Source of the DNA: Streptomyces endocoffeicus
Lineage (GTDB): Bacteria; Actinomycetota; Actinomycetes; Streptomycetales; Streptomycetaceae
Reading direction: 5' to 3'
Length of the DNA: 64,000 bases
Assembly (NCBI RefSeq): GCF_016741935.1
Contig: NZ_JAERRG010000001.1
Coordinates: 930,001-994,000 of the forward strand
In this document: positions 3,001-28,600 of the stretch, piece after piece
How the letters are laid out: each line of letters begins with the position of its first letter
Numbering within the stretch: position 1 is the first letter of the stretch
Notes under the pieces: generated by a model
Seen by the model: only the letters and a program-made list of their open reading frames with translations
Told to the model about the DNA's origin: nothing
Database searches by the model: none
Position numbers and translations under genes: made by a program

Positions 3001-4489
3001 TCACCACCCCACGGTGCTCGAACACCGACCGCGTCCCCACCAGAGAGAACGCCACATCGGCGGCGCCCAGCTCCGGACGGGCCGCCACGAACTCCCGCAG
3101 CCTGCCCGCCTGCGCCCGCAGGCCGGCCGCGCTGCGGCCGGACACCACCCAGGCCACCGGTCCGTCGGCGACCTCGGCCTCGGCGACCTCGGCCGCCTCG
3201 GCCTCCGGAGCCTGCTCCAGGATCGCGTGCGCGTTCGTTCCGCTGATGCCGAACGAGGACACACCCGCCCGCCGGGGCTGCTCCGACCCGGGCCAGGGGG
3301 TCGACTCGTTCAGCAGCCGGATGTCGCCCTCCGACCAGTCCACCTGGCTGGACGGCTCGTCCGCGTGGAGCGTCTTGGGCAGCACGCCGTTCCGGATGGC
3401 CATCACCATCTTGATGACCCCACCGACACCGGCGGCGGCCTGGGAGTGGCCGATGTTGGACTTCAGCGAGCCCAGCCACAGCGGCTTGTTCTCCGGCCGC
3501 TCCTTGCCGTAGGTGGCCATCAGCGCCTGCGCCTCGATGGGGTCGCCCAGCGAGGTGCCCGTGCCGTGGGCCTCCACCGCGTCCACATCAGCGGGCGTCA
3601 GGCCGGCGTTCTTCAGCGCCTGGCGGATCACCCGCCGCTGCGAGGGACCGTTGGGCGCGGTCAGACCGTTGGACGCGCCGTCCTGGTTGATCGCCGAGCC
3701 GCGGATGACGGCCAGCACCGGGTGGCCGTTGCGCCGGGCGTCCGAGAGCCGCTCCAGGAGCAGCAGACCCACGCCCTCCGCCCACCCCGTGCCGTCGGCG
3801 CCCGCGCCGAACGCCTTGCACCGTCCGTCGGGGGCGAGCCCGCCCTGCCGGCTGAACTCGACGAACATGCTGGGGGTGAACATGACGGCGACGCCGCCCG
3901 CCAGGGCCAGTGAGCACTCCTCCTGACGGAGCGCCTGGCAGGCCCAGTGCAGGGCCACCAGCGACGACGAGCACGCGGTGTCCACCGTCACGGCGGGCCC
4001 CTCCAGGCCCAGGGTGTAGGCCACCCGCCCGGACACCACGGAGGTGGCGTTGCCCGCGAGCATCAGCCCCTCCACGTCCGCGGGCATCTCGCTCACTCCG
4101 GCGCCGTAGCCGGAGGGCGAGGCGCCGACGAACACACCGGCCTGGCTGCCCCGCACCGACGCCGGGTCGATTCCGGCGCGCTCGAACGCCTCCCAGGCGG
4201 TTTCCAGCAGCAGCCGCTGCTGGGGGTCGGTGGCGAGCGCCTCCCGCGGGCTCATGGAGAAGAAGCCGGGGTCGAAGTCGCCGGGGGTCTCCAGGAATCC
4301 GCCCTCGCGGACGGAGAAGGTGCCGGACCGCTCCGAGTCGGGGTCGAAGAAACCATCGACGTCCCAGCCCCGGTCAGGAGGGAACTCGGTGATGGCGTCG
4401 CCGCCCTCGGCGACGAGCCGCCACAGCTCCTCCGGCGTCTTCACGCCCCCGGGGTACCGGCAGCTCATCGCCACAATGGCGATGGGCTC
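1..4489 (-). other. Module F1: KS-AT(mmal)-KR(A1)-ACP (ACP cut at edge)
   Basis: KS is at 4489-3207, AT at 2902-2040, the KR catalytic part at 990-430 and ACP from about 135 to beyond the window. Methylmalonyl loading is shown by YASH near 2308. The KR is A-type by the Trp motif and absence of LDD. Confidence 0.9.
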
Positions 4490-4588
4490 CCGGTCCCGCT
4501 CCTCCACCTGTCGAAGTTGCCGACGAGCCTGACGCAGGTCAGCCGTCACCTTCTTGAGGTAGTCAAGGAGTTTTTCGTCTTCCGCCAC
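1..4588 (-). CDS. Modular type I PKS, N-terminal part (gene F, 3' end outside window)
   Basis: The frame has no stop before the window edge, so only the first 1529 residues are seen. The start is a GTG at 4588, opening with (M)[18 protein letters not shown], a docking helix matching the tail of gene E; AAGGGG lies 9 bases upstream and the gap to gene E is 45 bases. Domains: KS (34-461, Cys206), AT (562-850, GHSQGE and YASH, methylmalonyl), KR (structural part from about 981, catalytic part 1201-1385) and ACP (from about 1484, LGFDSL present, cut at the edge). The KR lacks LDD and has Trp in [12 protein letters not shown], so it is A1-type. The KS-AT half resembles C and E4, while the KR half is almost identical to E2 at the DNA level, so the module looks like a hybrid. 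Further modules or a thioesterase may follow outside the window. Confidence 0.94.
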
Positions 4589-4633: not shown

Positions 4634-7600
4634 TCAGGACATTCCGAATTCGTCGTCGATGAGTTTGAAGATCTCGTCGGCGGTGGCCGATTCGATCTCG
4701 CTGTCGTCGTCCATCTCGTCGTCCAGCGCCGTCGCGGTGCCGGACACCTGCCCGGTTCCGCCGGCGGACCACTTGGCCACCAGGCCCTGGAGCCGCGCCA
4801 TGACCTTGTCGTGCGTCTCACTGTCGGAGTCGAGCGCCGACAGGGTGGATTCCAGTCGGTCGAGTTCTCCGAAGACGGGCTCGGTCGCGGGCCCGTCGGC
4901 GGGGGTGACCTCTTCGCGCAGGAATCGTCCGAGCGCCGCCGGGGTCGGGTAGTCGAACACCAAGGTCGCCGGCAGCCGCGTTCCCGTGATCGCGTTGAGG
5001 CGGTTGCGCAGTTCGACGGCCGACAGGGAGTCGAAGCCGAGGTCCTTGAACGCGTGTCCCGGCTCGATCGCCTGTCCCGACGCATAGCCGAGGACGACGG
5101 CCACCTGGTCGCACACCAGGTCCACCAGGATGCGCTCGCGCTCCGTCTCGGACTTCCCGGCCAGGTGCTGCTTGACCTCGGCGGCCGGGTCGGCCGTGGC
5201 GCTCGCGGCGCCCGCCTCCGCGGTCCGACGTGCGGGTGCCCGCACCAGTCCGCGCAGCAGTGCGGGTACCGCGTCGCTCACCGACGCCATGTCCATCGTC
5301 ATGGGCACCAGGACGGCACCGTCGAGATCGCGGGTCGCGTCGAACAGCGCGAGTCCGGCCTCGGGGGTGAGGGCGACCATGCCGGTCCTGGTCATCCGGT
5401 TGACGTCGGCGTCGGCCAGCTCGGTGGTCATGCCGCCGTCCTGTGTCCACGGCCCCCAGACGAGCGAGGCTGCGGGGAGACCCTCGGCCCTGCGGTGCTG
5501 GGCCAGGGCGTCCATGAACGCGTTGCCCGCCGCGTAGTTGGCCTGGCCCGCGCCGCCGAAGGTACCGGAGACGGAGGAGAACAGGATGAACGCGGCGAGG
5601 TCGAGGTCGCGGGTGAGCTCGTGGAGGTGCAGCGCGGCGTCCACCTTCGGACGCAGCACCTTGTCCACCCGCTCCGGCGTCAGCGACTCCACCAGACCGT
5701 CGTCCAGCACACCCGCCGCGTGCACCACGGCCGACAGCGGATGCTCCGACCCGATTCCGGCCAGCAGGCTCTCCACCGAAGTCCGGTCGGCGACATCGCA
5801 CGCCACCGCCTCCGCCTCGGCGCCCAGCCCGGCCAGCTCCGCCACCAACTCCGCCGCACCCGGCGCCTCCGCGCCACGACGACTCGTCAGCACCAGACGC
5901 TCAACCCCGTGCTCCACCACCAAGTGCCGGGCCAGCAACGCGCCCAGACCACCCGTACCACCCGTGATCAGCACCGTCCCCGGGCCTTCGAGCGTCCTCG
6001 GGATGGTCAGCGCCACCTTGCCGGTGTGCCGGGCCTGGCCGATGAAGCGGAAGGCGTCGGGCGCCCTGCGGACATCCCAGGTGCGCACCGGCAGCGGTCG
6101 CAGCACTCCGCTTTCGAACAGGGAGATCAGCTCGCCCCACATCTCGTGGATGCGAACGGGTCCCGCCTCCATGAGATCGAACGCCTGGTAGGAGACGCCG
6201 CCGTATTCGGCGGCCACCTCCTCCGGCACCCTGATGTCGGTCTTGCCCATCTCCAGGAACCGGCCGCCGCGCGGCAGCAGACGCAGGCCCGCGTCCACGA
6301 ACTCCCGCGCCAGCGAGTCGAGCACCACGTCCATACCGCGCCCGCCGGTCACATCGAAGAAGCGCTTCTCGAAGTCCAGCGTCCGCGACGACGCGATGTG
6401 CTCGTCGTCCAGACCCAGCGACCGCAGGGTGTCCCACTTGCCCTCGCTCGCGGTACCGAAGACCTCGGCGCCGAGGTGCCGTGCCAACTGGAGCGTGGCC
6501 ATGCCCACACCACCGGCCGCCGAGTGCACCAGCACCGACTGGCCGGGCTGGAGACCGCCCAGGTCCACCATGGCGTAGTAGGCCGTCAGGAACACGATGG
6601 GGGTGGAGGCCGCCTGCTCGAACGTCCAGTCGCCCGGGATCCGGGCGACGACGCGCCGGTCGGTGATGGCCACCGGGCCGAACGACCCGCCGAAGATGCC
6701 CATCACCCGGTCGCCGGGCGCCAGGTCCGTCACTCCGGGGCCGACCTCGGTCACGGTACCGGCGCCCTCGCCACCGAGCGGCCCGGCCTCTCCGGGGTAC
6801 ATCCCCAGGGCGTTGAGCACATCGCGGAAGTTCACACCCGCCGCGCGCATCTCGACCCTGATCTCGTTCTCGCCCAGGGCCTCGGTGGCATCGGGGCAGG
6901 GCAGCAGCGCCAGGTTCTCCAGGGTCCCCTTGGCGTGCATGTCCAGGCGCCATTCCCGTATTCCGGCGGGCGGCAGCAGCGCGGCACCCGAGGAGACCCG
7001 GGCCATGCGCTGGCCGAGCACCGTTCCCTCGCGGACCACGGCCTGCGGCTCGTCGGTGGCGAGCACGGCGGGCAGTGCCGCCTTGGACGCCTCGTCGGGC
7101 TCCCGCGGGTCCAGGTCCACCAGGACGAAGCAGTTCGGGTTCTCCGACTGCGCGGACCGCACCATGCCCCACAGGGGGGCGTGGATCAGGTCCGGGGTCT
7201 CGTCGCGGTCCTCGGGCGCCATCGCGCCCGAGGTCACGAAGACCAGTCGGGAGGAGTCGAACCGGCGGTCGCCGAGCCAGCCCTGGATCATGCCGAGCGT
7301 GTGGTGCGTCACCGCGTGGACGGCGCCCGCCGGCTCCAGGCCCCGCTTGGCCTTGCTCTTGCCCTTGGCCTTCGCCTTGCTCTTGGGCCTGCCCTGAGCC
7401 GCCTCGTCGTCGAGGCCCGGCGCGTAGGAGACCAGCACGGCCTCCGGGGCGGCGGCGCCACCGTCGATCGCGGCGCCCAGCGCGTCGAGATCGGCGTAGG
7501 CGGTCACCTCGGCTCCGGCGATCGCGCCGGCGGCCAGTCCGTAGTGGTCGGTGCCCACCAAGGCCCACTTGGCCGTCGCGGCCTCGGCCGGAACGGCGGC

Positions 7601-10600
7601 CGGAACGGCGGTCCAGTCCAGCGTGAACAGCGAGTCGCGGAACTCCGACGTCCTGGCCGAGTCGATGTGTTCCACCGACACCGGGCGCAGCACGAGGGAT
7701 TCGACCGACGCCACCGGGCGGCCGGTCCCGTCGGCCACCGCGAGGGAGATGGAATCCGGTCCGAGCTGGGTGAGCCGCACCCGCAGGGTGGACGCGCCAC
7801 CGGCGTGGAGCGACACCCCGCTCCAGGAGAACGGGAGCCGGGAGAGCCCGACGTCCTCCAGGGCCACGAAGGTCACCGCCTGCACGGCGGCGTCCAGCAG
7901 GGCGGGGTGGAGGCCGAAGTCGACCGCGTCCGACGCGTGCTTCTCACCGAGGCTGACCTCGACGTAGACGTCGTCGCCGGAGCGCCAGGCGGCCCGCAGG
8001 CCCTGGAACACCGGGCCATAGGCGAAGCCGGTGGCGGCGAAGCGCTCGTAGAAGTCGCTGATGTCCAGGGCTTCCGCGTCCGCCGGGGGCCACGCGCTCA
8101 GGTCGAACGACGGCTCGGGGCCGGCCGGGGCGAGCGCACCGGCCGCGTGCTGCGTCCACGGCTCGTCCGAGGACGCGCCGGCCGGGCGGGAGTACAGGCT
8201 GAGCGAGCGGTAGCCCGTCTCGTCCGTGTCACCCACCCAGAGCTGCACCTGGACCGGTTCGTTCTCGGGCAGGACCATCGGGGTGGCCAGGGTGACCTCC
8301 TCGACCCGGCCGCAGCCGACCTGGTCGGCGGCGCGGATGGCCAGCTCCAGGAATCCGGTCCCGGGGAACAGCGCCGCGCCCCCGATCGCGTGGTCGGCGA
8401 GCCACGGCTGGCTCTGCACCGACAGCCTGCTGGTGAACAGGAATCCATCGCTGCCCGCCAGCTCGACTCCGGCACCCAGCAGCGGGTGGTTGGGAGAGCT
8501 GAGCCCGGCGGAGGCGACATCCCCGGTCATCGGGCCGGGCGCCTTCGGCCAGTAGCGCTGCCGCTGGAAGGCGTAGGTGGGCAGTTCCACCCGCCGCACA
8601 TCGTGTCCGGCGAACGCCGTCGACCAGTTCACGGTGGTGCCGTGGACGTGGAGTTCGGCCAGCGCCGTCGTCAGCGCCTGGGCCTCGGGGCGGTTCTTCC
8701 GCAGCGCGGGGACGAGGGTGAGATCGGCCCCGCCCTCGTCGGCCGTCAGGCAGTCCTGGGCCATCGCTGTGAGCACACCGTCGGGGCCCACCTCCAGGAA
8801 CGAGGTCACCCCGAGCTTCTCCAGGGCCCGTACCCCGTCCGCGAAGCGCACCGCCTCCCGCACGTGCCGCACCCAGTACTCCGGCGAGCACACCTCGGCG
8901 GCCGCCGCCGAGGCACCCGTGAGGTTGGAGACCAGGGAGATCGACGGTGCCCGGAAGGACAGGCCGGAGACGACGTCATGGAAGTCGTCCAGCATCGCGT
9001 CCATGCGCGGCGAGTGGAAGGCGTGGCTGACCGTCAGCCGGCGGGTCTTGCGACCTTGCTCCGCCCAGTCCTCGGCGATCTCCAGTGCCGCGGCCTCATC
9101 GCCCGCGATCACCACGGCCGTCGGGCCGTTGACCGCGGCGATGCTCACCTCGGCCGCACGGCCGGCCAGCGACAGAGCGACTTCCTCCTCGGACGCCTGG
9201 ATGGCCACCATCGCGCCGCCCTCCGGCAGCGCCTGCATCAGCCGGCCACGCGCCGCGATCAGCGCGCACGCGTCCTCCAGGGAGAGCACCCCGGCCACAT
9301 GGGCCGCGGCGACCTCTCCCACCGAGTGGCCGATCAGCACATCCGCGGTGACGCCCCAGCGCTCCAGCAGCCGGAACAGCGCCACCTCGATGGCGAACAG
9401 CGCGGGCTGGGTGAACGCCGTCTGGTTCAGCAGCTCGGCATCCGCGCTGCCCTCGGCGGCGAACATCACCTCCTGCAGCGGCCGGTCGAGCCGCACATCG
9501 AGGTACGCGCACACCTCGTCCAGCGCGCGGGCGAACACCGGGAAGGCGTCGTACAGCTCCCGGCCCATGCCCAGGCGCTGCGCGCCCTGACCCGAGAACA
9601 GGAACGCCGTCTTGCCGGCCGTGCCCACGGATCCCTGGACGACTGCGGGGGCCGTGGCACCCGAGGCGATGGCCTCGAGACCGCTCAGCAGCCCGTCCCG
9701 GTCGCCGCTCATGAGCACGGCGCGGTGATCGAAGACGGACCGGGTGACCGCCAGCGCGTGGCCCACGTCGTCGAGGTCGAGCTCGGGGTGGGCCGTCACA
9801 TAGTCGTGCAGGTTCCTCGCCTGGGCGCGCAGCGCCTCGGCGCCCTTGCCGGTGACCGTCCAGGGACGTGCGTCCGAGTCGGCCTGGGGGGCGTCGTCCG
9901 TACGGACCCGCTCCAGCGCCTCCGGCTCCGGGGCCTGCTCGATGATGGTGTGGGCGTTGGTGCCGCTGATGCCGAACGAGGAGATGCCCGCCCGGCGCGG
10001 CTCGCCGTTCTCCGGCCACGCGGTCGGCGCGGTCAGCAACCGGACCTCGCCCGCCGTCCAGTCCACATGCGGCGTGGGCTCATCGACGTGGAGCGTCCGC
10101 GGCAGCACGCCCTCGCGCATGGCCATCACCATCTTGATGATCCCGGCCACGCCCGCGGCCGCCTGCGTGTGCCCGAGGTTCGACTTGATGGAGCCCAGCC
10201 ACAGCGGCTGGTCCTCCTGCCGCCCCTGGCCGTAGGTGGCCAGCAGCGCCTGTGCCTCGATCGGGTCACCGAGCCTGGTGCCGGTGCCGTGCGCCTCGAC
10301 CGCCTGCACCTGGTGGGCGGCGAGGTCGGCGCTGGCCAGCGCCTGACGGATGACCCGCTGCTGCGACGGGCCGTTGGGCGCCGTGATGCCGTTGGACGCA
10401 CCGTCCTGGTTGACCGCGGAGCCACGCACGATCGCCATCACCGGGTGACCGTTGCGCCGCGCGTCCGACAGCCGCTCCAGCAGCAGCACGCCGACGCCCT
10501 CGGACCAGCCGGTGCCGTCCGCCGACGCGGCGAACGCCTTGCACCGCCCGTCCGACGACAGCCCCTTCTGGCGGCTGAAGTCCACGAACGACCCCGGGCT

Positions 10601-13600
10601 GGACATGATCGTGACACCGCCGGCCAGCGCCATGTCGCACTCGCCCTGGCGCAGCGACTGCGCGGCCATGTGCAGCGCCACCAGCGACGACGAGCACGCC
10701 GTGTCCACCGTGACGGCCGGTCCTTCGAGACCGAAGGTGTAGGAGATACGGCCCGATACGACGCTGGCCGCGTTGCCCGTTCCGAGGTAGCCCTCGGGTC
10801 CGCCCGGGGCGGTCAGCAGCAGGCCGATGTAGTCCTGGCCGTTGCTTCCCGCGAAGACACCCGTCCGGCTTCCCTTGAGGGAGGTGGGGTCGATGCCCGC
10901 CCGCTCGAACACCTCCCAGGAGGTCTCCAGCAGCAGCCGCTGCTGCGGGTCGATGGTCAGCGCCTCGCGCGGAGCGATCCCGAAGAACTGCGGATCGAAC
11001 TCATCGGCGTCGTAGACGAATCCGCCGCCGCTCGAGTAGCTGGTGCCCGAGTTCTCCGGGTCCGGGTCGTAGAGCTCGTCGAGGTCCCAGCCACGGTTGG
11101 TCGGGTAGGCGCTGATCACGTCGCTGCCCTCGGAGACCAGCCGCCACAGATCCTCCGGGGTGCGTACCCCACCGGGGAAGCGGCAGCTCATCGACACGAT
11201 CACGATCGGATCGTCGTCCACGACCGTGCCCGTCACCACCGGCAGGTCATCGGCCGGCGCGGGGGCGGTGCCCAGCACCTCACCGAGGACGAACTCGGCG
11301 AGCGCCGTGGGCGTCGGGTAGTCGAAGGCCACGGTGATCGGCAGGTTCACACCGGTCGCCATGCCGAGGCCGTTGCGCAGCTCCACGGCGGTCAGCGAGT
11401 CGAACCCGATGTCCCTGAAGGCCCGGTCCGGCTCCACCGAGTCGGCGCTCGGATAGCCGATCGCCTCGGCGGCGTGCGACCTGACGAGGTCGAGCACCTC
11501 CGCCTGGCGTTCGGCGGCCGACAGCCCTTCGAGGCGCTCGACCAGCCCGCTGGAGGCCGCGCCGATCTCGGCCTCCGCCGCCTCCAGCGCCTGCCGCACC
11601 TCCGGCAGTTCGTTCAGCAGGGGACGCGGCCGGGCGGCGGCGAATCCGGGGGCGTAGCGCTCCCAGTCCACGTCGGCGACGGTGATGTCGACCTCTTCGT
11701 GGTCGAGCGCCTGCTGAAGGGCGTCGACGGCGAGTTCGGGCGCCAGCGCCGGCATACCTTGCCGCTTCAGCTGGGCCGCGGTGGCCTCGTTGACCAGACC
11801 ACCGCCGCCCCAGGCACCCCACGCCACCGAGGTGGCCGCCAGCCCCTGGGCCCGGCGCTGCTGCGCCAGGGCGTCGAGGAAGGCGTTCGCGGCGGCGTAG
11901 CTGCCCTGGCCGTTACCACCGACGGTTCCGGCGTAGGAGGAGAAGAGGATGAACGCGGACAGGTCCAGGTCCTGGGTCAGCTCGTGGAGGTTCACCACGG
12001 CGTCCACCTTGGGCCGGAAGACACCCTGCGCCCTGGGGACGGTGAGGGTGTCGATGAGGCCGTCGTCCAGGATGCCGGCCGCGTGCACCACCGCGGTGAG
12101 CGGGTACTCGGCGGGCAGCCCGTCGATGAGCTCACGCAGCGCGCCGCGGTCGGCGGCGTCACAGGCCGCGACGGTGACCCGCGCGCCGAGAGCGATCAGC
12201 TCGTCCCTCAGCTCGGCCGCGCCAGGGGCGTCCGGGCCGCGGCGGCTGGTCAGCACCAGGTGCTCGGCACCGGCCTGGACGAGCCAGCGGGCGAGGCGGC
12301 CACCGAGGGCACCGGTACCACCGGTGATCAGGACGCTGCCGCGAGGCTCCCAGGTACGGGCCGGCTGGGTGTCGCCCAGGGGTGCCCGGACGAGCCGTCG
12401 GCCGAAGACCCCGGTGGCGCGCACCGCGACCTGGTCCTCGTCACCGGAGCGCCCGATCAGGCCGACCAGGCGGTTCAGCGCCCGCTCGTCGATCGCGTCC
12501 GGCGACTCGGGGAGGTCGACGAGACCGCCCCAGCGCTGTGCGTACTCCAGGCCGACCACCCGGCCCAGACCCCATATCAGGGACTGCTTGACGTTGCCGA
12601 CCCGGTCGGAGCGGCCCACGGACACGGCTCCGGTGGTGGCGAGCCACAGCGGCACATCGATGTCGATGTCGCTCAGCGCCTGGACCAGGGCCACGGTGCC
12701 GGCGAAGCCGCGCGGAATGCCCGGGTGTTCGGGGAGCGCCTCCTCGTCCAGCGCGAGCAGGGAGAGCACTCCGTCGATCGCGGGCTTCCCCGCCTGCTCG
12801 GATCCGTCCGTGGCGGGTGTGCCGGGGGCCGCGGCCCGGATGAGCTCGACCAGCGACGACCGCTCCGGCTCCGCCTCGTCCAGGTCGATCCGCACCATGC
12901 GGGCCCCGTGGCGCTCCACGTCCCGGGCGATGCGCTCGGCCAGTTCACGGGCGCTGTCGACCGGCGGGACGACGACCGCCCAGGTACCGGTGATCGGGGC
13001 GCCCTGCTCCTGGTCGGAGCCGGACGACGGCTGGTCGATGAGGGGCTTCCAGTTGATCCGGTAGCGCCAGTTGTCGACCGTCGAGCGGTCACGCCTGCCT
13101 CGCCGGTACGACGACAGGGCGGGCAGCACCGCGCTCAGCGGCGCCTCCCCGTCGAGCTCCAGCGTCCGCGCCAGTCCCTCGAGGTCCTCGCGCTCGACGG
13201 CCTCCCAGAACCGGGCGTCCACCGAGTCGGCCTCGGACACGGGGGCGTTGCCGAACGTGGCGTCCTCGGCCGGCTGCGGCCAGTACCGCTGCCGCTGGAA
13301 GGCGTAGGTCGGCAGGTCGATCTGGCGGGCGCCGTGTCCGGCGAACACCTTCCGCCAGTCGACGTCGGCCCCATTGACATGAAGCTCGGCGACCGAGGTC
13401 AGGAACCGCTCCAGGCCGCCCTCGTCACGGCGCAGCGTGCCGATGACCACGGCCTGGGCCTCGGCGGCCTCCACGGTCTGCTGAACGGGAAGGGTGAGGA
13501 CCGGATGCGGGCTCACCTCGATGAACACACCGTGGCCACTGCCGAGCAGGGTACGGGTGGTGGCTTCCAGCTCGACGGTCTGCCGCAGGTTGCGGTACCA

Positions 13601-16600
13601 GTACTCCGCGTCCAGACCGGCGGTGTCCACCAGTTCGCCGGACACCGTGGAGTAGAACGGCACCTCCGAGGAACGCGGCTCGATACCGGCGAGGACCTTC
13701 AGCAGTTCCTCGTGGATGGCCTCGACGTGTGCGGAGTGCGAGGCGTAGTCCACCGGCACCCGGCGAACCCGGATCTCCTCACCCTCCAGCCGCTCGACCA
13801 TCTCATCCAGCGCACCCGCGTCACCCGACACCACGACCGAACCCGGGCCGTTGACCGCGGCGACCGAGATCGCGCCATCCCAGGCGGCGATGCGCTCCTT
13901 GGCCTGGTCGACCGGCAGCCCGACCGACACCATGCCACCGCGGCCCGCAAGGCCCGCCGCGATCGCCTGCGACCGCAAGGTCACCACCTTCGCGGCATCC
14001 TCCAGCGACAGGGCGCCCGCGACGCAGGCCGCGGCGATCTCGCCCTGGCTGTGGCCCATCACGGCATCCGGCTCGATGCCAACCGAACGCCACAGCTTCG
14101 CCAGCGACACCATCACCGCGAACAGCACCGGCTGCACGACATCCACCCGGTCGAAGCCGGGAGCGCCCTCGGCACCGCGCAGTACCTCGGTCAGCGACCA
14201 GTCCACATAGGCCGACAGGGCCGTCTCACATTCGGCCATCGCCTCCGTGAACACCGGCGAGGACTCCAGCAAGTCCACCGCCATGCCCATCCACTGCGCC
14301 CCCTGGCCGGGGAAGACGAACACCGAACGGCCCGGTGCCTCGACGGCGCTCGCGCGGACCACGCCCGGTGCCTTCGTGCCCTCGGCCAACGCCGCCAGGC
14401 GCTCGAGGAGTTCCTCGCGGCCGGTCCCGGTCACCGCGGCCCGGTACTGGAACGCGGACCTGGTCGTCGCGAGGGAGTGCGCCACATCCGCGGCACGCAG
14501 CTCGGGGCGCTCGGCCACGAACTCCCGCAGCTGCTCGGCCTGGGCCAGCACCGCGTCGTTGCTCTTGGCGGCCACGACCCACGTCACCGGACCATCGGCG
14601 ACCTCGGCCTCGGCGGTCTCGGCCGCCTCAACCTCCGGAGCCTGCTCCAGGATGGTGTGCACATTGGTGCCGCTCATACCGAACGCCGACACACCCGCAC
14701 GCCGCGGGCGCCCGGTCTCGGGCCACGGCCTGGCCTCGGCCAGCAGCTCGACGTCGCCCTCCGTCCAGTCCACGTGCGGCGAAGGCTCGTCGAGGTGCAG
14801 CGTCTTCGGCAGCACGCCGTGACGCATCGCCATCACCATCTTGATGATGCCGCCCACGCCCGCGGCCGCCTGCGAGTGGCCGATGTTCGACTTGATGGCG
14901 CCCAGCATCAGCGGCTCGCCCTCGGGGCGGTCCTGGCCGTAGGTGGCCAGCAGCGCCTGCGCCTCGATCGGGTCGCCCAGCGACGTACCCGTACCGTGCG
15001 CCTCCACGGCGTCCACCTCGGCGGCCGACAGACGGGCGTTCGCCAGCGCCTGCCGGATGACCCGCTGCTGCGACGGGCCGTTGGGCGCCGTCAGACCGTT
15101 GCTCGCACCGTCCTGGTTCACCGCGCTGCCCCGCACCACGGCGAGCACCGGGTGCCCGTTGCGGCGTGCGTCCGACAGCCTCTCGAGGACGAGCATGCCG
15201 ACGCCTTCGGCCCAGCTCGCACCGTCCGCGGCGGCCGAGAACGGCTTGCTCCGTCCGTCGGAGGCCAGGGCGCGCTGCCGGCTGAACTCGATCAGCGACA
15301 TCGGGGTGGACATCACCGTCACACCACCGGCCAGCGCCAGCGAGCACTCGCCCTGGCGCAGTGCCTGCCACGCGAGGTGCAGGGCGACCAGCGACGAGGA
15401 GCACGCGGTGTCCACCGTCATGGCGGGCCCTTCGAGGCCCAGGGTGTAGGAGATACGGCCCGAGAGCACGCTCGGCGAGACACCGGTGCCGACGAGGCCC
15501 TCGACCGCCTCCTGGGATCCGACGAGAACGCCGCCGTAGTCCTGGTAGGTCGTGCCGGCGAAGACGCCGGTCTGGCTGCCCTTTGCCGAGACCGGGTCGA
15601 TACCGGCCCGCTCCAGCGCCTCCCACGAGGTTTCCAGCAGCAGTCGGTGCTGCGGGTCCATCGCTATCGCCTCACGCGGCGAGATCCCGAAGAACGCCGG
15701 GTCGAACTGGCTGGCGTTGTGCAGGAAGCCACCTTCCTGCGTGTAGCACTTGCCGGGCTCGTCCGGGTCCGGGTCGTAGAGGTTCTCCACGTCCCAGCCG
15801 CGGTCCGTCGGGAAGGGCGAGATGCCGTCCCGGCCCTGGGCGACGAGATCCCACAGACCCTCGGGGGTGGTCACCCCTCCGGGATAGCGGCAGCTCATCC
15901 CCACGATCACGATCGGATCGTCGTTGGCCGCCACCGCGACCGGTACCGGCTGCCGGGCCCCGGTCAGCGTGCCGAGGACCTCGGCACGGGTGAACTTCGC
16001 CAGTTCGGCGGGGGTCGGGTAGTCGAACACGGCCGTCGCCGGGAGGCGCAGGCCCGTGGCCTTGCTCACCCGGTTACGGAACTCGACGGCGGTCAGCGAG
16101 CTGAAGCCGAGGTCCTTGAACGCCTGCGATCCCTGGACCGCGTCGGCGGAGGCGTGTCCGAGCACTCCCGCGACATGTGTGCGGATCACATCGAGCAGCA
16201 CCCGGTCCTGCTCCGGCTCGGAGAGCCCGGCCAGCCGCTCGCGCAGCGCGGCGAGCGGACCGGAGTCCGATCCGGCGCCCCGCTTGGCGGTGCGTCGTGT
16301 GGTCTTGCGCCGACGGGAGGGCTTGGTGGAGGTCTCCTCTACGGAGGTGGTCACCTCGACGGGAGTGGTCTCCTCGACGGAGGTGGTCTCCTCGACGGGA
16401 GTGGTCTCCTCGACGCGGGTGGTCACCTCGGGAGAGGTGCCGGTCCCGGCCGCATCCGGCGCCGGGATCTCCGGCTGCTCCGTGGCGACCTGGCGCAGCG
16501 TCACCTTGTCGGCGGACAGCACGGCCTCACCGGCTCCGTCGACAGCCGTCAGGGAGAGGGTCTCCGGCCCGGTCCGGGCGAGCCGGACACGCAGCGCGGA

Positions 16601-19600
16601 GGCACCGGCCGCGTACAGCGACACCCCGGCCAGGCTGAACAGCATGCGGCCGCGCCCCATGCCGTCCAGCACTCCGAGGCCGAGCGGCTGCAGCGCCGCG
16701 TCCAGCAGGGCGGGGTGCAGCCCGAACCGCTGGGCGTCCACAACGGACTCCTCAGCCAGGCTGACCTCGGCGAACACCTCGTCCTCGCGCTGCCACACGG
16801 CTCGCAGCCCACGGAACGAGGGTCCGTAGACGAAGCCGCTGTCGGCGAGGAGCTCGTAGAGGCCGTCCACATCGACGCGCTCGGCGCCGGGCGGGGGCCA
16901 GGCGGCGGAGTCGAGGCGCGCCGCTCCTTCGGCGGTCGCGGCGTCCTCCGGCTCCGGGGCGAGCACACCGCTGGCGTGGCAGATCCACTCGTCCTCGTCC
17001 TCGTCCACCGGCTCGGCGGCTCGCGAGTACATCTCCAGCGAACGGGTGCCGGACTCGTCCTCCTCGCCGAGGACGAGCTGGATCTGGACGCCGCCCCCTC
17101 GGGGAAGGAGCAGCGGCGCCTGGATGACGAGCTCTTCCACCTGGCCGAGGCCGACCTCGTCACCGGCGCGAATGGCCAGTTCGACGAGGGCCGTGGTGGC
17201 CAGGACCGCCTCGCCGCGCAGAACATGGTCCGCCAGCCAGGGCTGGGTGTGCAGCGAGAGCGATCCGGTGAACACCAGGCCGTCGGCGCCCGCGAGGGGG
17301 ACGGCTCCGCCCAGCAGCGGGTGATCGGCGGGGTCGAGGCCGAAGGCCGCGGCGTCTCCCGCCGAGGCACCGGCCTCCAGCCAGTAGCGCTGATGCTGGA
17401 ACGCGTAGGTCGGAAGGTCCACGCGGCGGGCGCCGCGTCCGGCGAAGAAGGCCCGCCAGTCGACGGTTTCGCCGTGGACGTGCATCTCGGCGAGCGCCGC
17501 GAGGAGCGCCTGCGTGTCGGGGCGATCCTTGCGCAGCACCGGAACCAGCAGGGGGGCCGGTGTGCCCTCGGCCGCGATGTCGTCGACCGGCTCGGTCAGG
17601 CAGTCCTGGGCCATCGCGGACAGTACGCCGTCGGGGCCCACCTCGATGTACGCGGTGACACCCTGGGCTTCGAGGGACCGCACTCCGTTGCGGAAGCGGA
17701 CGGTCTCCCGTACGTGCCGCACCCAGTACTCCGGCGAGCACACCTCCTCGGCCCCGGCCTGCTCACCCGTGACGTTGGAGACGAGCGCGATGGACGGGCT
17801 GTGGTAGGTGAGCGTCCCCGCGACCGCGCGGAAGTCGTCCAGCATCGCGTCCATGTGCGGGGAGTGGAAGGCGTGGCTGACACGCAGACGGCGCGTCTTG
17901 CGGTCCTGCTCGGCCCACTGTCCGGCGATCTCCAGCGCCGCTGCCTCATCACCGGCGATGACCACGGAGGTCGGGCCGTTGACGGCGGCGATGCTCACCT
18001 CGGCCGCACGGCCGGCGAGTGACGGAGCGATCTCCTCCTCGGACGCCTCGATGGCGACCATCGCCCCACCGGCCGGCAGCGCCTGCATCAGGCGGCCGCG
18101 GGCGGCCACCAGCGCGCAGGCGTCATCCAGGGAGAACACCCCGGCCACGTGGGCCGCGGCGATCTCACCGATGGAGTGGCCGATCAGCACATCCGGGGTG
18201 ACACTCCAGTGCTCCAGCAGCCGGAACAGCGCCACCTCGACCGCGAAGAGCGCGGGCTGGGTGAACGCCGTCTGGTCCAGCAGCTCGGCGTCCGCACTGC
18301 CCTCGGCCGCGAACATCACGTCCCGCAGCGGACGGTCCAGCAGAAGGTCGAGCCGTGCGCTCACCTCGTCCAGCGCCCTGGCGAACACCGGGAACTCCTC
18401 GTACAGTTCGCGACCCATGCCCAGGCGCTGCGCGCCCTGGCCGGTGAACAGGAACGCGGTCTTTCCGGCCGTGGCCGCCTGCCCCTGAACGATGCCGGGG
18501 GCGTCGTCGCCCGCGGCGACGGTCTCCAGGCCGCGCAACAGCGCCTCGCGCTCGGTGCTCAGCAGCACCGCGCGGTGCTCGAACACCGATCGCGTGGCGA
18601 CCAGCGATTCGGCGATGTCCAGGACACCGGCCCCGGCCCCTTCGGAGACGCCGGACCCGGCCCCTTCGGAAAGGTGGGCGCGCAGCCGCTCGGCCTGGGC
18701 GCGCAGGGCTTCCGGGCTCCGGGCGGAGAGCACCCACGGGGCCATGCCCTGGTCGTCGGCGGGGGCCGCCGGGGCGGGCTCCGCCTCGTCCTGGACCGGG
18801 GCCTGCTCGATGATGGTGTGCGCGTTGGTGCCGCTCACGCCGAAGGCGGAGATACCGGCCCGGCGCGGCCGCTCGGTCGCGGGCCATGCGGCGGCCTCCG
18901 TCAGCAGGCGCACCTCGCCCGCGGACCAGTCCACCTCGCGCGACGGCTCATCCACGTGCAGCGTCCGCGGCAGCACTCCGTGCCGCATCGCCATCACCAT
19001 CTTGATGACACCGGCGACACCGGCGGCGGCCTGCGTGTGGCCGATGTTCGACTTGATCGAGCCCAGCCAGAGCGGCAGGTCCTCCGGGCGCTCCTGCCCG
19101 TAGGTGGCCAGCAGCGCCTGTGCCTCGATCGGGTCACCCAGCGTCGTACCGGTGCCGTGCGCCTCGATCACCTGGACGTCGGCGGCGGAGAGCTGGGCGT
19201 TGGCGAGGGCCTGCCGGATCACCCGCTGCTGCGAGGGGCCGTTGGGCGCCGTCAGACCGTTGCTCGCACCGTCCTGGTTGACCGCCGAGCCGCGCACGAT
19301 CGCCAGCACCTGGTGGCCGTTGCGCCGGGCGTCGGACAGCCGCTCCACGAGGAGCATGCCCACACCCTCGGACCAGCCCGTGCCATCGGCCGCGTCCGCG
19401 AACGGCTTGCACCGTCCGTCGGGGGCGAGCCCGCGCTGCCGGCTGAACTCCACGAAGGCGGCCGGGCTGGTCATCACGGTGACGCCACCGGCGAGCGCCA
19501 TGGAGCACTCGCCCTGGCGCACCGCCTGCGCGGCCTGGTGCAGGGCGACCAGCGACGACGAGCACGCCGTGTCCACCGTCAGCGCGGGTCCTTCCAGACC

Positions 19601-22600
19601 CAGGGTGTAGGAGATGCGGCCCGACACGACGGAGGTGGCGCTGCCGGTCAGCAGCTGCCCTTCCAGCCCCTCGGGGATCTCGTGCAGCCCCATTCCGTAG
19701 CCGGAAGTCGCGGCTCCCACGTAGACACCGATCTGGTTGCCGCGTACGGACGCCGGGTCGATACCGGCCCGCTCGAACGCCTCCCAGGAGGTCTCCAGCA
19801 GCAACCGCTGCTGCGGATCCATGGCGAGCGCCTCGCGCGGCGAGATTCCGAAGAACGCGGCGTCGAACTCGCCCGCCTCGTCGAGGAATCCACCCTCACG
19901 GGCGTAGAACGTGCCCAAACTCTCGGGGTCGGGGTCGTACATCCCGTCGACGTCCCACCCACGGTCGGAGGGGAAGTCCGTGATGGCGTCCGTACCGGCC
20001 GCGACGAGGTTCCACAGCTCCTCCGGGCTGCGCACACCGCCGGGGAAGCGGCAGCTCATCCCGACGATCGCGATCGGGTCGTCGTCGGCCGGGGCCACCA
20101 CCGCCGACGGCGTGGCCACCGCGCCCCGCGTCCCCAGCACCTCGGTACGCAGATGGTCGGCCAGCACCGTGGCGCTCGGGTAGTCGAAGACCAACGTGGC
20201 CGGCAGCACCAGCCCGGTCTCCGCGTTCAGGCGGTTACGGAACTCCACCGCCGTGAGCGAGTCGAAGCCCAGCTCCTTGAACGCACGCGCGGGCTCGACC
20301 GCCTCCGCACCGGAGAAGCCGAGGACCGCGGCGGCGTGGGCGCGCACCAGGTCGAGCAGGGTCCGGTCGATCTCGGCCTCGGTGAGCCCCGTCAGGCGCT
20401 CCCGCAGTGCCGAGCCGGTGCCGGTGCCCTCGGTGCTTCCGGCGCTCGCCAGCGCACGCTCGACCTCGGGCAGTTCACCGATGAGCGGGCTCGGCCGCCC
20501 CATGGTGAACGCGGGGGCGAATCGCTCCCAGTCCACATCGGCGACCGTCACCACACCGTCGTCACCCGCGACCGCACCCTGCAGCGCGGCGATCGCCAGA
20601 CCGGGCGCCATCGCGGGCAGACCGCGGCGGGCCAGGCCGTCGTCTCCGGCCGCCATACCGCCCCCGGCCCAGGGACCCCAGGCGACTGCGGTACCGGCGA
20701 GACCCCGCCCGCGGCGCTCCTCCACCAAGGCGTCCAGGTAGGCGTTGGCCGCACCGTACGCGGCCTGGCCACCACTGCCCCACACACCGGCGATCGAGGA
20801 GAAGACCACGAACGCGTCGAGCTCCCGGTCGCCCAGCAGCTCGTTCAGGTTGACGGCGCCCGCCACCTTGCCGGAGACCACGGCGGCGACATCGGCCAGA
20901 TCGGTCTCGGCCAGCGTCCCCGCACCGTTGGCGCCCGCCGCGTGGACGACCGCCGTCAGCGGGTACTCCTCCGGTACGGCGTCCAGCACCGCGGCGAGCC
21001 GCTCGCGGTCGGCCACATCGCAGGCGGCCACGGTCACCCGGGCGCCCAGGGCCTCGAGCTCCGCACTGAGCTCGGCCGCCCCCGGCGCGTCAGGACCGCG
21101 ACGGCTCGTCAGCACCAGGTGCTCGGCACCGCTACGCGCCAGCCAGCGCGCCACCTGACCGCCCAGCGCGCCCGTGCCACCGGTCACCAGCACCGTGCCG
21201 CGCGCCCGCCACGACGTGTCCTCGCCGACGGCCGCGGCCGACCGCACCAGACGGCGTACGAAGACACCGGAGCCGCGCACCGCGACCTGGTCCTCGCCGC
21301 CCTCGGCGGACAGCACACCGGCCAGCCGCGCCACCGCGCGCTCATCCAGCGACTCGGGCAGATCGACCAGACCGCCCCACAGCGGCGACAGTTCCAGCGC
21401 GGCCGTCCGGCCCAGCGCCCAGACCATCGCCTGCGCCGGGCTGGTGAGCCGCTCGGAGCGGCCCACCGACACGGCGCCACGCGTTCCGCTCCACAGCGAA
21501 GTCTCGACACCCGCGTCGACCATGGCCCGTACCAGGGACAGCGTCAGGGCGACACCGCCCGACAGCGCCGGATGCTCCGGGCAGGGCTCCTCGTCCAGGG
21601 CGAGCAGCGACAGCACACCACCCAGCTCCGGCGCCTCCGCGGCCGCCGCACGCAGCCGCTCGGCCAGCGCATCCGTGTCGAGGTCGCGCTCGTCCAGCAC
21701 GAGCGACACCACACCCGCGCCATGTCGTTCGAGCCCGGCGACGACCCCCGAGACCAGCTCGTCCTCGGCGCGGGACGCCGGAACCACCACCAGCCACGTC
21801 CCCGACAGCGAGCCGTCGGCCGCCTCGGAGACCGGCTTCCACGACACCCGGTAACGCCAGCCATCGATGGTCGACTGGTCACGAGTGCTGCGGTGATACG
21901 CGGACAGGGCGGGCAGCACCGCGCTCAGCGGCGCCTCACTGTCGATCGACAGGGCACCCGCCAGCGACTCCAGGTCCTGGCGCTCCACCACCTCCCAGAA
22001 CCGCGCGTCCACCGAATCCACGGCCGTCGACGCGCCCCAGCCCGCGAGGGTGATGGACACCTCGGGCCAGAACCGCTCGCGCTGGAAGGCGTACGTGGGC
22101 AGTTCCACCATGCCCGCGCCGCGCCCGGCGAAGACCGCCTCCCACTCCACCGACCCACCGTGGACGTGGAGTTCGGCCAGCGCCGTCATCAGCGCCTGGG
22201 TCTCGGGGCGGTCCTTGCGCAGCACCGGCACCACGGCCGAGGCCGAGGCCTCCTCCGCAGTCAGGCAGTCCCGCGCCATCGCGGACAGCACACCGTCGGG
22301 GCCGATCTCCAGGAACCTGGTGACGCCCTGGGCGTTGAGTGCCCGTATGCCGTCCGCGAACCGCACGGCCTCGCGCACATGCCGCACCCAGTACTCGGGC
22401 GAGCGCACGTCATCCGCGTTCGCCGCCTCGCCCGTCACATTCGAGACCAGGGCGATGGACGGTGCCTGGAAGGACAGGCCCGTGACGACGTCACGGAAGT
22501 CGTCCAGCATCGCGTCCATGCGGGGCGAGTGGAACGCGTGGCTGACGCGCAGGCGACGGGTCTTACGGCCCCGCTCCGCCCACTGCCCGGCGATCTCCAG

Positions 22601-25600
22601 CGCCGCACCCTCATCACCGGCGATGACCACGGAGGCCGGCCCGTTGACGGCCGCGATGCTCACCTCGGCCGCACGACCGGCCAGCGACGGAGCGACCTCC
22701 TCCTCCGACGCCTCGATGGCGACCATCGCCCCACCGGTCGGCAGCGCCTGCATCAGGCGGCCGCGGGCGGCCACCAGCGCGCAGGCGTCATCCAGGGAGA
22801 ACACCCCGGCCACGTGGGCCGCCGCGATCTCACCGATGGAGTGACCGATCAGCACATCCGGGGTGACACCCCAGTGCTCCAGCAGCCGGAACAGCGCCAC
22901 CTCGACCGCGAACAGCGCGGGCTGGGTGAACGCCGTCCGATCCAGCAGCTCGGCGTCCGCGCTCCCCTCCGCCGCGAACACCACCTCCCGCAGCGGGCGG
23001 TCCAGCTCCACGTCCAGGTGTGCGCACACCTCGTCCAGCGCCCGCGCGAACACCGGGAACGCCTCGTACAACTCCCGCCCCATGCCCAGGCGCTGCGCGC
23101 CCTGACCAGAGAACAGGAACGCCGACTTTCCACCGGTTACGGTCTGCCCCTGGACGACTCCCGAGGCGATTCCGCCCTCCGCGACGGCCCGCAGGCCACG
23201 CAGCAGGGTCTCCCGGTCCTCACCCACCAGCACGGCCCGGTGCTCGAACACCGACCTGGACGCCAGCGTGTGTCCGACGTCCAGCACTCCGACGTCTTCC
23301 CGCGCCGTCACATGCCCGTACAGCCGCTCGGCCTGCGCCCGCAGCGCCTCCCGGCTCTGCCCGGAGACCAGCCACGGCACCACGGCCGCCGACACCGACG
23401 TCTCGGGCCCGGCCGCCTGCGCGGCCACGGCCTCTTCCAGGTCAGGAGCCTGCTCGAGGATGGTGTGCGCGTTGGTTCCACTCAGCCCGAACGAGGAGAC
23501 ACCCGCCCGGCGCGGCTGTCCCGTCTCCGGCCACTCGGTGGCCTCGGTCAGCAGCCGTACCTCACCAGCCGACCAGTCCACCTGCCGCGACGGCTCGTCC
23601 ACGTGCAGCGTCTGCGGCAGCACGCCCGCACGCATGGCCATCACCATCTTGATGACCCCGGCCACGCCCGCGGCGGCCTGCGTATGGCCGATGTTGGACT
23701 TGATGGCGCCCAGCCACAGCGGGCGGCCCTCCGGGCGGTCCTGGCCGTAGGTCGCGAGCAGCGCCTGCGCCTCGATCGGGTCACCCAGCGTCGTACCGGT
23801 GCCGTGCGCCTCCACCGCGTCCACCTCGGCGGCCGACAGTCCGGCGCTCTCCAGCGCCTGCCGGATGACCCGCTGCTGCGAGGGGCCGTTCGGCGCCGTC
23901 AGACCGTTCGAGGCACCGTCCTGGTTCACGGCGGAGCCCCGCACGATCGCCAGTACCTGGTGGCCATTGCGCCGGGCGTCCGACAGCCGCTCCACGAGCA
24001 GCATGCCGACACCCTCGCCCCAGCCCGTGCCGTCCGCACCCTCGGCGAACGGCTTGCAGCGGCCGTCGGGAGCCAGGCCGCGCTGGCGGCTGAACTCCAC
24101 GAAGGCACCCGGTGTCGACATCACCGACACACCACCGGCCAGCGCCAGATCACACTCGCCCTGGCGCAGCGCCTGTGCCGCGAGGTGCAGCGCCACCAGC
24201 GACGAGGAGCACGCCGTGTCCACCGTCATGGCCGGCCCCTCGAGGCCGAACGTGTACGAGATGCGCCCGGACACCACACTGGCCGCGCTGCCCGTGCCCA
24301 CATGGCCGCCGAAGTCCTCGGGGGCGTCGAGCATGATCGTGGAGTAGTCCTGGCCGTTGGTTCCGACGAACACACCGGTCCGGGTGGAACGCAGCGAGGC
24401 CGGTTTGACGCCCGCGTTCTCGAACGCCTCCCACGACGTCTCCAGCAGCAGCCGCTGCTGCGGGTCCATGGCGAGCGCCTCGCGCGGCGAGATCCCGAAG
24501 AACCCGGGGTCGAACTGGGGCGCCCCGTAGAGGAAGCCGCCCTCGCGGGCGTAGAACGTGTTGCCCGGGTGCTCGGGGTCCGGGTGGTACATCCCCTCGA
24601 CGTCCCAGCCACGGTCGCCGGGGAACCCGGCGATGCCGTCGCCGCCCTCGGCCAGGAGTCGCCACAGGTCCTGCGGGGTCTCCACGCCTCCGGGGAACCG
24701 GCAGCTCATCGCCACGATCGCGATGGGGTCGTCGTCATCGGGCCGCACCCGGTGCGCCACCGTCGCGGTGGCCGCCTCGGCGTGGACTCCGCCCAGCTCC
24801 CGCCACAGCTGCCCGGCGAGCACCTCGGCGGTCGGGTAGTCGAAGATGAGGGTCGCGGGCAGCCGCAGACCGGTGGCCAGGTCGAGCCGGTTGCGCAGCT
24901 CGATGGCGGTGAGGGAGTCGAATCCGAGGTCCCGGAAGGCGCGGCCCGGCTCGACGGACTCAGCGGAGAAGTGGCCGAGTGCCGAGGCGGCATGGGTGCG
25001 GACGAGGTCCAGCAGGAGGAGGCGCTGCTCCTCGTCCGACCGTCCGGCCAGTTGTTCCCGCAGCTCGTGGCCCGGTGCCGGGCGGCCGGTGGTCCCGGCC
25101 ACGGCGGTCAGGAACTCACGCGCCTCGGGGATGTCGCTGACGAGGGCGCTGGGGCCCGCGCTCATCATCGACGCCATGCCGGTCCAGTCGATGTCGGCCA
25201 CGACCAGTGCGGCCTCGTCATGGCCCACGGCCCAGCGCAGCACGTCCACGGCGAGCGAGGGGGCCATAGGGGGCAGCGACCCTCCGCGGAGCCGCTCCCC
25301 GGCGCGGCCGCTCGCGGCCATGCCGCCGTCGGCCCACGGGCCCCAGGCGACCGCGGTGGCGGCCAGGCCCTGGGCCCGGCGCTGCTGTGCCAGCGCGTCC
25401 AAGTAGGCGTTGGCCGCGGCGTAGGCGCCCTGGCCCGCGCTGCCGACGACGCCGGCGAACGAGGAGAACAGCACGAACGCGTCGAGCGACAGTCCCTCGG
25501 TCAGCTCGTGCAGCTGCCGCGCGCCCTCCACCTTCGCGGTCAGCGTCCCGGCGAGCTGGTCGACGGTCAGGCCGTCCAGCACACCGTCATCCAGAATGCC

Positions 25601-28600
25601 CGCCGCGTGTACGACGGCGCTGAGCGGGTAATCCTCCGGAATGGCAGCCAGCACCGCGGCGAGGGCATCCCGGTCGGCGGCGTCGCACGCCGCCACGGTC
25701 ACCTGGGCGCCCAGCTCCTCGAGCTCCGCCTTGAGCTCGGCAGCGCCCTCGGCCGCCGGGCCGCGACGGCTGGTCAGCACCACGTGTTCGGCGCCCTCGC
25801 GCACGGCCCAGCGCGCCACATGGGCGCCCAGGGCACCGGTGCCACCGGTGATCAGCACCGAGCCACGGGGCCGCCACGCGCGCTCCGCCGACTCGTTGCC
25901 CACCGTGACGCGGGAGAGGCGCCGGGCGTACGCTCCGGATCCGCGCACCGCCACCTGGTCCTCGCCGCCTTCGGCGGACAGCGCCCAGGCCAGTCGCGCG
26001 GCGGCGCGCTCGTCCAGCGTCTCCGGCAGATCGACGAGGCCGCCCCAGATCCGCGGGTGCTCCATGGCCGCGACCCGGCCGAGGCCCCAGATCTCCGCTT
26101 GCGGGGTGCTGGTGAGCTGGTCGGAGCGACCCACCGAAACGGCACCCCGGGTGCCGCACCACAGCCGGGTCTCGATGTCCGCCTCGGCCAGGGCCCGCAC
26201 CAGCGTCAGCGTCAGCGCGAGGCCACGGGAGACCACCGGCTGTCCGGTGCAGGGCCGCTCGTCCACACCCACCAGGGACAGCACACCGCCGATCCCGGGC
26301 AGGTCGGCGGCGAGGTCACGCAGCCGCCCGGTCAGCACACCGGGGGCGAGGTCGTCCTCGTCCGCGACCACGCGGACGACATCGGCACCGTGCCGCTGGA
26401 GAGCGGCGCACGCCGACTCCGGATACGTGTCATCGATGCCGGAGGCGGGGACGACGACGAGCCAGGTCCCCGAGAGGGTGGCCGCGGGGGTCTCCGAGAC
26501 CGGCTTCCACGAGATGCGGTACCGCCAGCCGTCGACCGTGGCCCGGTCACGCTGCTGACGGCGGTACGAGGACAGCGCGGGCAGCAGTTCGCCGAGCGAG
26601 CCACCGCCGTCGACCTCCAGCGCCTCGGCCAGCGCCGCCAGGTCCTCGCGCTCCACCGCGTCCCAGAACCGCGCGTCCACACTGTCCGCGGCGGAACCAC
26701 TGGACACCGCGCTGGTGCCCTCCAGCCAGTAGCGCTGACGCTGGAAGGGGTACGTCGGCAGCTCGACCGTGCGGGCGCCCCGCCCGTCGAAGACCCGCTC
26801 CCAGTCCACCGTCACACCGTGGACATGGGCCTCGGTCAGCGCGGCCATCAGAGCCTGTGCGTCGGGGCGTCCCTTGCGCAGAGCGGGCACCACGGCCGGG
26901 GCCGACACCGACTCGTTCGTCAGGCAGTCCCGGGCCATCGCCGAGAGCACACCGTCGGGCCCGACCTCCAGGTAGGCGGTGACCCCCTGCGCCTGGAGGG
27001 AGCGGACGCCATCAGCGAAGCGCACGGCCTCGCGCACATGCCGCACCCAGTACTCGGGCGAGCACACCTCATCCGCGTTCGCCGCCTCGCCCGTGACGTT
27101 GGAGACCAGCGCCAGGGTGGGGGTCTGGAAGGACAGCCCCCGCACGACACGGCTGAAGTCGTCCAGCATCGCGTCCATACGCGGGGAGTGGAAGGCGTGG
27201 CTGACCTTCAGCCGGCTCGTCTTGCGCCCTTGTTCCGACCACTGGGCGGCGATCTCCAGCACAGCGGCCTCGTCACCGGCGATGACCACGGAGGTCAGGC
27301 CGTTGACGGCGGCGATGCTCACCTCGGACTCACGGCCCGCCAGCGAACCGGAGATCTCCTCCTCCGACGCCTGCACCGCGACCATCGCGCCGCCCTCGGG
27401 CAGCGCCTGCATCAGCCGGCCGCGGGCCGCGATCAGCGTGCACGCGTCCTCCAGGGAGAACACCCCGGCCACGTGGGCCGCGGCGATCTCGCCGATGGAG
27501 TGGCCGATGAGGACATCCGGGGTGACGCCGAAGTGCTCCAGGAGCCGGAACAGCGCCACCTCGATGGCGAACAGCGCCGGCTGGGTGAACGCCGTCTGAT
27601 CCAGAAGGTCGGCGTCCGCGCTCCCCTCCGCCGCGAACACCACCTCCCGCAACGGACGGTCCAGCACCACATCCAGGTGTGCGCACACCTCGTCCAGCGC
27701 CTGGGCGAACACGGGGAAGCCGTCATACAGCTCCCGGCCCATCCCGAGGCGCTGCGCGCCCTGGCCGGAGAAGAGGAACGCCGTCTTGACGGCCGTCCCC
27801 GCCACGCCCTGGAGCACACCGGGAGCGGCCTCGCCCGCGGCGATGGCTTCGAGTCCGGCGAGGAGTTCCGCGTGGTTCTCACCGGACACCACCGCGCGAT
27901 GCTCGAACATCGACCGTGTGGCCACCAGCGAATGGCCGACGTCCAGCGCGCTCAGCTCGGCCCGCTCCAGCAGGAACGCCTTGAGCCGGGCGGCCTGGGC
28001 CCGCAGGGCGTCCGAGTCACGACCCGACAGCAGCCACGTGGCCACACCGGTGTCACCGACGGAGACCGGGCTCGGCTCGGCCTCGTCCTCGACCGGCGGG
28101 GCCTGCTCGATGATGGTGTGCGCGTTGGTGCCGCTCACACCGAACGCCGACACACCGGCCCGGCGCGGCTGACCCGTCTCCGGCCACTCGGTGGCCTCCG
28201 TCAGCAGCCGCACCTCACCAGCCGACCAGTCCACCTGCCGCGACGGCTCGTCCACATGCAGTGTCCGCGGCAGCACACCGTGCCGCATCGCCATCACCAT
28301 CTTGATGATCCCGGCGACACCGGCGGCGGCCTGCGTATGACCGATGTTCGACTTCAGCGCGCCCAGCCACAGCGGACGGCCCTCCGGCCGCTCCTGGCCG
28401 TACGTCGCGAGCAGCGCCTGCGCCTCGATCGGGTCGCCCAGGGACGTACCGGTTCCATGGCCTTCCACGACGTCCACATCGGACGGGGACAGGCGCGCGC
28501 CCGTCAGCGCGTCCCGGATGACCCGCTGCTGCGAGGGGCCGTTGGGGGCGGTCAGACCGTTGGACGCACCGTCCTGGTTGACCGCGGAGCCACGCACGAT

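Follow-up and report, generated by a model that had tools for sequence, protein, structure and literature searches.

A ketoreductase-less module in an azalomycin-type polyketide synthase of Streptomyces endocoffeicus and the hemiketal ketone it is predicted to set

Module E3 and its missing ketoreductase

The stretch of DNA analysed here (the window: 64,000 nucleotides, positions 930,001 to 994,000 of contig NZ_JAERRG010000001.1, C1 below, of Streptomyces endocoffeicus) carries part of a modular polyketide synthase (PKS) cluster that fits the azalomycin-type guanidine-polyol PKSs. Our subject is E3, the third of the five modules of PKS protein E, which has a ketosynthase (KS), an acyltransferase (AT), a dehydratase (DH) and an acyl carrier protein (ACP) but no ketoreductase (KR). 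A five-module E protein with a KR-less third module is an azalomycin-type trait, and this cluster has it. The whole cluster covers about 100 kb and encodes nine PKS proteins with 19 KS domains and 19 extension modules, the number described for the azalomycin group (PMC5518293, PMC5082578). Protein I combines a loading ACP with a first module that also carries an enoylreductase (ER; ACP / KS-AT-DH-ER-KR-ACP), and it is adjoined by an AMP-binding CoA ligase and a VinK-type discrete acyltransferase (VinK_C). A thioesterase lies at the end of protein H. Domains were called with local profile hidden Markov models built from the cluster itself, alongside Pfam.

The original prediction, made from the sequence of this stretch, held that E3 passes from its DH through a short repetitive linker directly into the ACP, and it proposed a profile search of that span. 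Pfam at E <= 10 matched 11 families in E3, namely KS, AT, DH, ACP and minor ones, with no KR among them, and the 178-aa piece comprising linker and ACP matched only two families, PP-binding and DUF760 (E = 0.2). The same search recovered KR in the E4 piece at 1.1e-34 and in the E1 piece at 1.5e-61. The local profiles likewise gave no KR in E3, and a genome-wide PF08659 scan hit E4 (C1:941807-942340) and E2 (C1:950666-951199), with nothing between them among the matches listed. The linker is as short and repetitive as had been described (Table 1).

The local profiles found 18 KRs in the cluster, and E3 is the sole KR-less module. The YxxxN motif is present in all 18, including the KRs of E2 and E4 on either side of E3. 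This bears out the claims that the flanking KRs are intact and that E3 stands alone among the visible modules, its lack of a KR being unique among all 19. A dead KR in F1, considered as the source of a second ketone within the window, was rejected, as F1 carries YGSGN and was counted as intact. In H1, the last module, which lies outside the window, the KR reads VTEGTG and HADE as against VTGGTG and HAAG, and its activity appears uncertain.

The comparison with homologous clusters that had also been proposed gave the same picture. We examined 79 E3-like loci from the best 80 matches, and six of them contain a KS-AT-DH-ACP module (S. iranensis, S. antioxidans, S. rugosispiralis, S. hygroscopicus NBRC 13472, S. 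sabulosicollis and S. buecherae). Three further KR-less orthologues come from S. lasiicapitis, S. youssoufiensis and S. antimycoticus. The KR is thus absent, and the KS-AT-DH-ACP order kept, in 10/10 E3 orthologues found, our own genome included. The neighbours of E3 are identical in type across the orthologues as far as each contig extends, and the S. iranensis module is 91.5% identical to E3. No KR-bearing E3 orthologue was found among the best 80 similar loci or the 120 listed of 604 proteins.

In those 120 proteins, one of which (P0059) is the window's own protein or a near-identical copy and another (P0050) S. iranensis again, 442 DHs are followed by KR in 360 cases, by ER in 73, by the protein end in 4 and directly by ACP in 5. 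Four of these last five are E3 orthologues and the fifth is an independent case from Amycolatopsis. Because the 8 KR-less E3 DHs form a single clade with support 1.0 in a tree of 206 DHs, we read a single ancestral KR loss behind all the orthologues. The nearest DH outside the clade is just 57% identical, so the type of the donor module could not be named. Taken from sequence comparison, these results support a KR loss that is real, conserved and specific to E3.

Table 1. Positions in the window of protein E, module E3 and the domains relevant to its predicted product.
Feature	Window position	Residues	Strand	Character	Basis
PKS protein E, AzlE-like	4634-29479	8281 aa	minus	modules E1-E5 = KR / KR / DH only / KR / DH-ER-KR	ORF call and domains
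Module E3	15974-20071	3137-4502	minus	KS-AT(malonyl-type HAFH)-DH-linker-ACP, without KR	local profiles and Pfam
KS of E3	18812..20071	3137-3556	minus		local profiles
AT of E3	17591..18451	3677-3963	minus	HAFH motif, malonyl type	local profiles and motif
DH of E3	16493..17347	4045-4329	minus	catalytic His and Asp kept; HxxxGxxxxPG to HxxxGxxxxAT, LPFxW to xLFSL	profiles, alignments, AlphaFold2 (AF2)
DH-to-ACP linker	16229..16492	4330-4417	minus	88 aa, at the expected KR place	local profiles and Pfam
Tandem repeat	16331..16430		minus	18 bp, 5.6 copies, encoding an acidic VEETT-type repeat	repeat scan
Basic linker patch	16277..16324		minus	9 Lys/Arg per 16 residues in 5/5 clusters measured	alignment, position by hand count
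ACP of E3	15974..16228	4418-4502	minus	GFSSL replacing GFDSL	local profiles and alignment
KR of E2	20591..21208		minus	predicted C19-OH	profiles and motifs
KR of E1	25244..25873		minus	predicted C21-OH, hemiketal partner	profiles and motifs
KR of E4	11723..12346		minus	predicted C15-OH	profiles and motifs
DH-ER-KR of E5	5354..8512		minus	predicted C13 CH2	profiles and motifs

Within the linker, the VEETT-repeat part varies in length among orthologues and the basic patch after it stays, being present in all seven aligned E3 modules. An R/K..RR pattern of the segment that follows KRs occurs in 23/32 DH+KR modules and 3/52 KR-only modules, and in 5/5 E3 modules. Rather than serving a special function, the patch may in part be a remnant of this post-KR segment, but it is richer in Lys/Arg, with 9 per 16 residues against a median of 4. 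In the ACP, GFSSL is found in six of the seven aligned modules and GFTSL in S. antioxidans, against the usual GFDSL.

The predicted ketone and hemiketal

As a KR-less module in a cluster of azalomycin-type layout, E3 very probably passes on an unreduced beta-ketone, likely C17 of a C17-C21 hemiketal. Carbons were numbered by a colinear count back from the thioesterase-bearing module H, which makes the E3 beta-carbon C17. As the ATs of E2 and E3 carry HAFH, a malonyl-type motif (PMC9673147), the ketone would lie between CH2 groups, as originally predicted. The hydroxyls predicted from E4 (C15) and E2 (C19) stand 1,3 to it, and E1 is predicted to set a hydroxyl at C21. The original prediction placed hydroxyls suited to a six-membered hemiketal on both sides of the ketone. 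This holds upstream, for the C21 hydroxyl, but not downstream; because E5 has DH-ER-KR and C13 is predicted to be CH2, such a ring could be closed only through C21.

In this scheme the beta-ketoacyl chain that E3 extends with a malonyl unit and carries on its ACP could not be reduced and would pass to E4 still as a ketone. Addition of the C21 hydroxyl to C17, either in the course of assembly or once it is complete, would close the six-membered hemiketal ring. The Fig. 3 legend of PMC9796313 states a C17-C21 hemiketal in polaramycin B. A review reports a six-membered hemiketal in all 48 guanidine polyol macrolides and puts the ketone at position (n-2)/2, which is 17 in 36-membered rings (PMC6864768, section 4). 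By analogy, the E3 ketone and the E1 hydroxyl predict exactly the hemiketal of polaramycin B, in agreement with the (n-2)/2 rule. The published hemiketal (PMC9796313, PMC6864768) and the C17 count support the original suggestion that the KR loss defines a key structural feature of the product.

Several points weigh against this interpretation. The strain has no known product, and its C17 ketone is a prediction from the genes. In modules 4-7 the cluster departs, by domain content or AT type, from S. iranensis, S. lasiicapitis and S. buecherae, so plain azalomycin F is not expected as the product. In the azalomycin PKS, ER1/2 acts in trans on module 3 (PMC9899208), and such trans-action in the same PKS type means that sequence leaves room for a KR working in trans. 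Finally, treating the retained E3 DH as mere baggage leaves its median NG86 omega of 0.26 without an explanation.

The main points are already in print, as the KR-less module stands in a published table (PMC8880029) and this class of compounds is well known to bear the hemiketal. The review states that these antifungals require the six-membered hemiketal ring for their antimicrobial activity (PMC6864768), and E3 ties a conserved, gene-level KR loss to that ring. E3 also offers a clean natural example of KR loss that leaves a DH behind, which is useful for PKS engineering, and its stranded DH makes it testable whether enzymes help in hemiketal closure of such polyols.

The retained dehydratase and competing explanations

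The E3 DH is predicted to have the DH fold (AF2 mean pLDDT 91.9), its best match in the PDB being an ordinary dehydratase, 4ln9 (TM 0.90). Catalytic His and Asp are kept in 10/10 E3 DHs. The motifs of active DHs, HxxxGxxxxP and LPFxW, are absent, P4094, P4280 and W4283 being replaced in all ten; the P of HxxxGxxxxP is found in 197/198 other DHs and is Ala in 8/8 E3 DHs. In 185 DHs coupled to a KR or ER, 67 sites reach a conservation of at least 90%, and six of these are changed in 10/10 E3 DHs: P4094, G4095, P4280 and W4283 in the two motifs, together with A4058 and R4073. Among the ten, 206/279 columns are invariant. With pairs at or below 75% identity dropped, median NG86 omega is 0.26 for the E3 DH (6 pairs with our own); the E5 DH gives 0.20 and the E4 KR 0.27 (4 pairs each). 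These comparisons suggest that the E3 DH evolves under constraint, and random decay is not favoured on omega, site conservation and the kept His and Asp.

A KR-less DH module has also arisen independently at a protein end in Amycolatopsis sp. NBC_00438 (P0110, residues 6225-6490), with an Arg-rich linker of its own. Its PG motif is intact, so KR loss alone does not cause the changes in the DH motifs.

Lacking a beta-hydroxyl substrate of its own, the E3 DH most likely sits idle between AT and ACP as a scaffold. It is unlikely, if conceivable, that the domain was instead rebuilt after the KR loss, its motifs replaced once and then held in all ten, to bind the beta-keto chain and help the C21 hydroxyl add to the C17 ketone, or to guard the beta-ketothioester until it reaches E4. 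The predicted fold, the kept catalytic residues, the six shared changes, the invariant columns and the omega values would all suit such a role. So would the presence among the structural matches of AmbDH3 (5o15/5o16; phmmer E 5.3e-43, TM-score 0.84-0.85 by query length), a dehydratase-cyclase of the same fold. Also in its favour, the hemiketal step of demurilactone is said to await investigation (PMC9673147). AmbDH3, however, acts first as a dehydratase and goes on to cyclise the enoyl product (PMC4979870); without a KR, E3 offers no such substrate.

Other observations also argue against a new function. Delta-hydroxyketone hemiketals form without an enzyme. The closest structure is that of an ordinary dehydratase, and a structural role would equally yield purifying selection, the omega of the E3 DH being slightly above that of the E5 DH. 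Deviation at the conserved sites as large as that of our E3 DH, or larger, occurs in 11/185 coupled DHs, so the count of changed sites alone proves nothing, and the substitutions, which stem from shared ancestry, are explained by one ancestral fixation and count as one event. An E3 DH that did help to close the hemiketal would, as far as our literature search shows, be the first domain of DH fold to do so on a modular PKS. We found no discussion of the DH retained in E3 in the literature on azalomycin, marginolactone, niphimycin, KR-less modules and DH cyclisation, supplements not covered.

Reduction of the E3 ketone in trans, by the KR of a neighbouring module or by a discrete reductase, would give a hydroxyl at C17 and the retained DH a substrate, and the azalomycin PKS has an established case of enoylreduction across modules (PMC9899208). 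Related compounds, however, carry a ketone-derived hemiketal at C17 (PMC6864768, PMC9796313), and the PF08659 matches listed in C1:870000-1029000 all fall within PKS proteins, although a weak discrete reductase could sit among the weakest, unlisted ones. We consider such a reduction very improbable. That an assembly fault collapsed a KR between repeats has next to no likelihood: PKS genes are repetitive, a tandem repeat lies at the spot and the first report on the ebelactone PKS is suspected of mis-assembly (PMC5082578), but the frame is open and the records from nine further species refute a collapse, as they share the KR-less order yet have their own linkers.

Comparison with known systems

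Like our cluster, the azalomycin F PKSs of Streptomyces sp. 211726, S. malaysiensis DSM4137 and S. iranensis are described with 19 extension modules, along with a loading protein whose single module is iterative. In the E-type protein of S. iranensis, a producer of azalomycin F (PMC10322714), the KR-less module precedes KR and DH-ER-KR modules as it does here, within contig reach. In the layout of modules 3-7, our cluster agrees with the azalomycin F PKS proper in module 3 and differs in modules 4-7. Here M4 is DH-ER-KR, M5 KR, M6 a malonyl-type DH-KR and M7 a methylmalonyl-type KR, whereas in S. iranensis M4 is KR, M5 a malonyl-type DH-KR, M6 a methylmalonyl-type DH-KR and M7 a malonyl-type KR.

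Proteins A, B and C (window 43833-64000 and beyond) thus represent one of two layouts of azalomycin-like clusters. Our M4-M7 layout is that of strain N11-34 (see below) as printed, and of S. rugosispiralis within contig reach; S. iranensis, S. lasiicapitis and S. buecherae differ. B2 (M6) is 89% identical to M5 of S. iranensis and B1 (M5) 76% to its M4, and A2 (DH-ER-KR) has no full-length counterpart there. By sequence, it looks as if one module had been inserted relative to the S. iranensis layout. Should the lactone hydroxyl come from B1, a 34-membered ring would result, a size outside the 32, 36 and 40 of the review (PMC6864768).

The AT of H1 (C1:912501-912503, codon GGC; protein H at C1:908190-914504, minus strand, outside the window) has GHGQG replacing GHSxG. 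GHGQG also occurs in S. rugosispiralis, with GHS in S. iranensis, S. lasiicapitis and S. buecherae. The catalytic serine seems to be lost, so another AT may load H1. Upstream of the PKS genes, a 1584-aa frame (L005:14346-19100, plus strand) has no Pfam match at E <= 0.001.

The closest published system is t1pks-4 (azl) of Streptomyces sp. N11-34, whose nine PKS proteins all match ours in domain string, with KS/ATm/DH/ACP again third in the five-module protein (PMC8880029). It belongs to a different strain, and the available text of that paper tabulates the KR-less module and does not discuss its missing KR. Among products, polaramycin B and the guanidine polyol macrolides have a C17-C21 hemiketal that matches our predicted E3 ketone and E1 hydroxyl. 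The macrolactone made by the demurilactone A PKS likewise owes its six-membered hemiketal to an unreduced position, as we predict here (PMC9673147). That PKS does have a KR there, which must be inactive or skipped although its active site seems functional, whereas in E3 the KR is absent.

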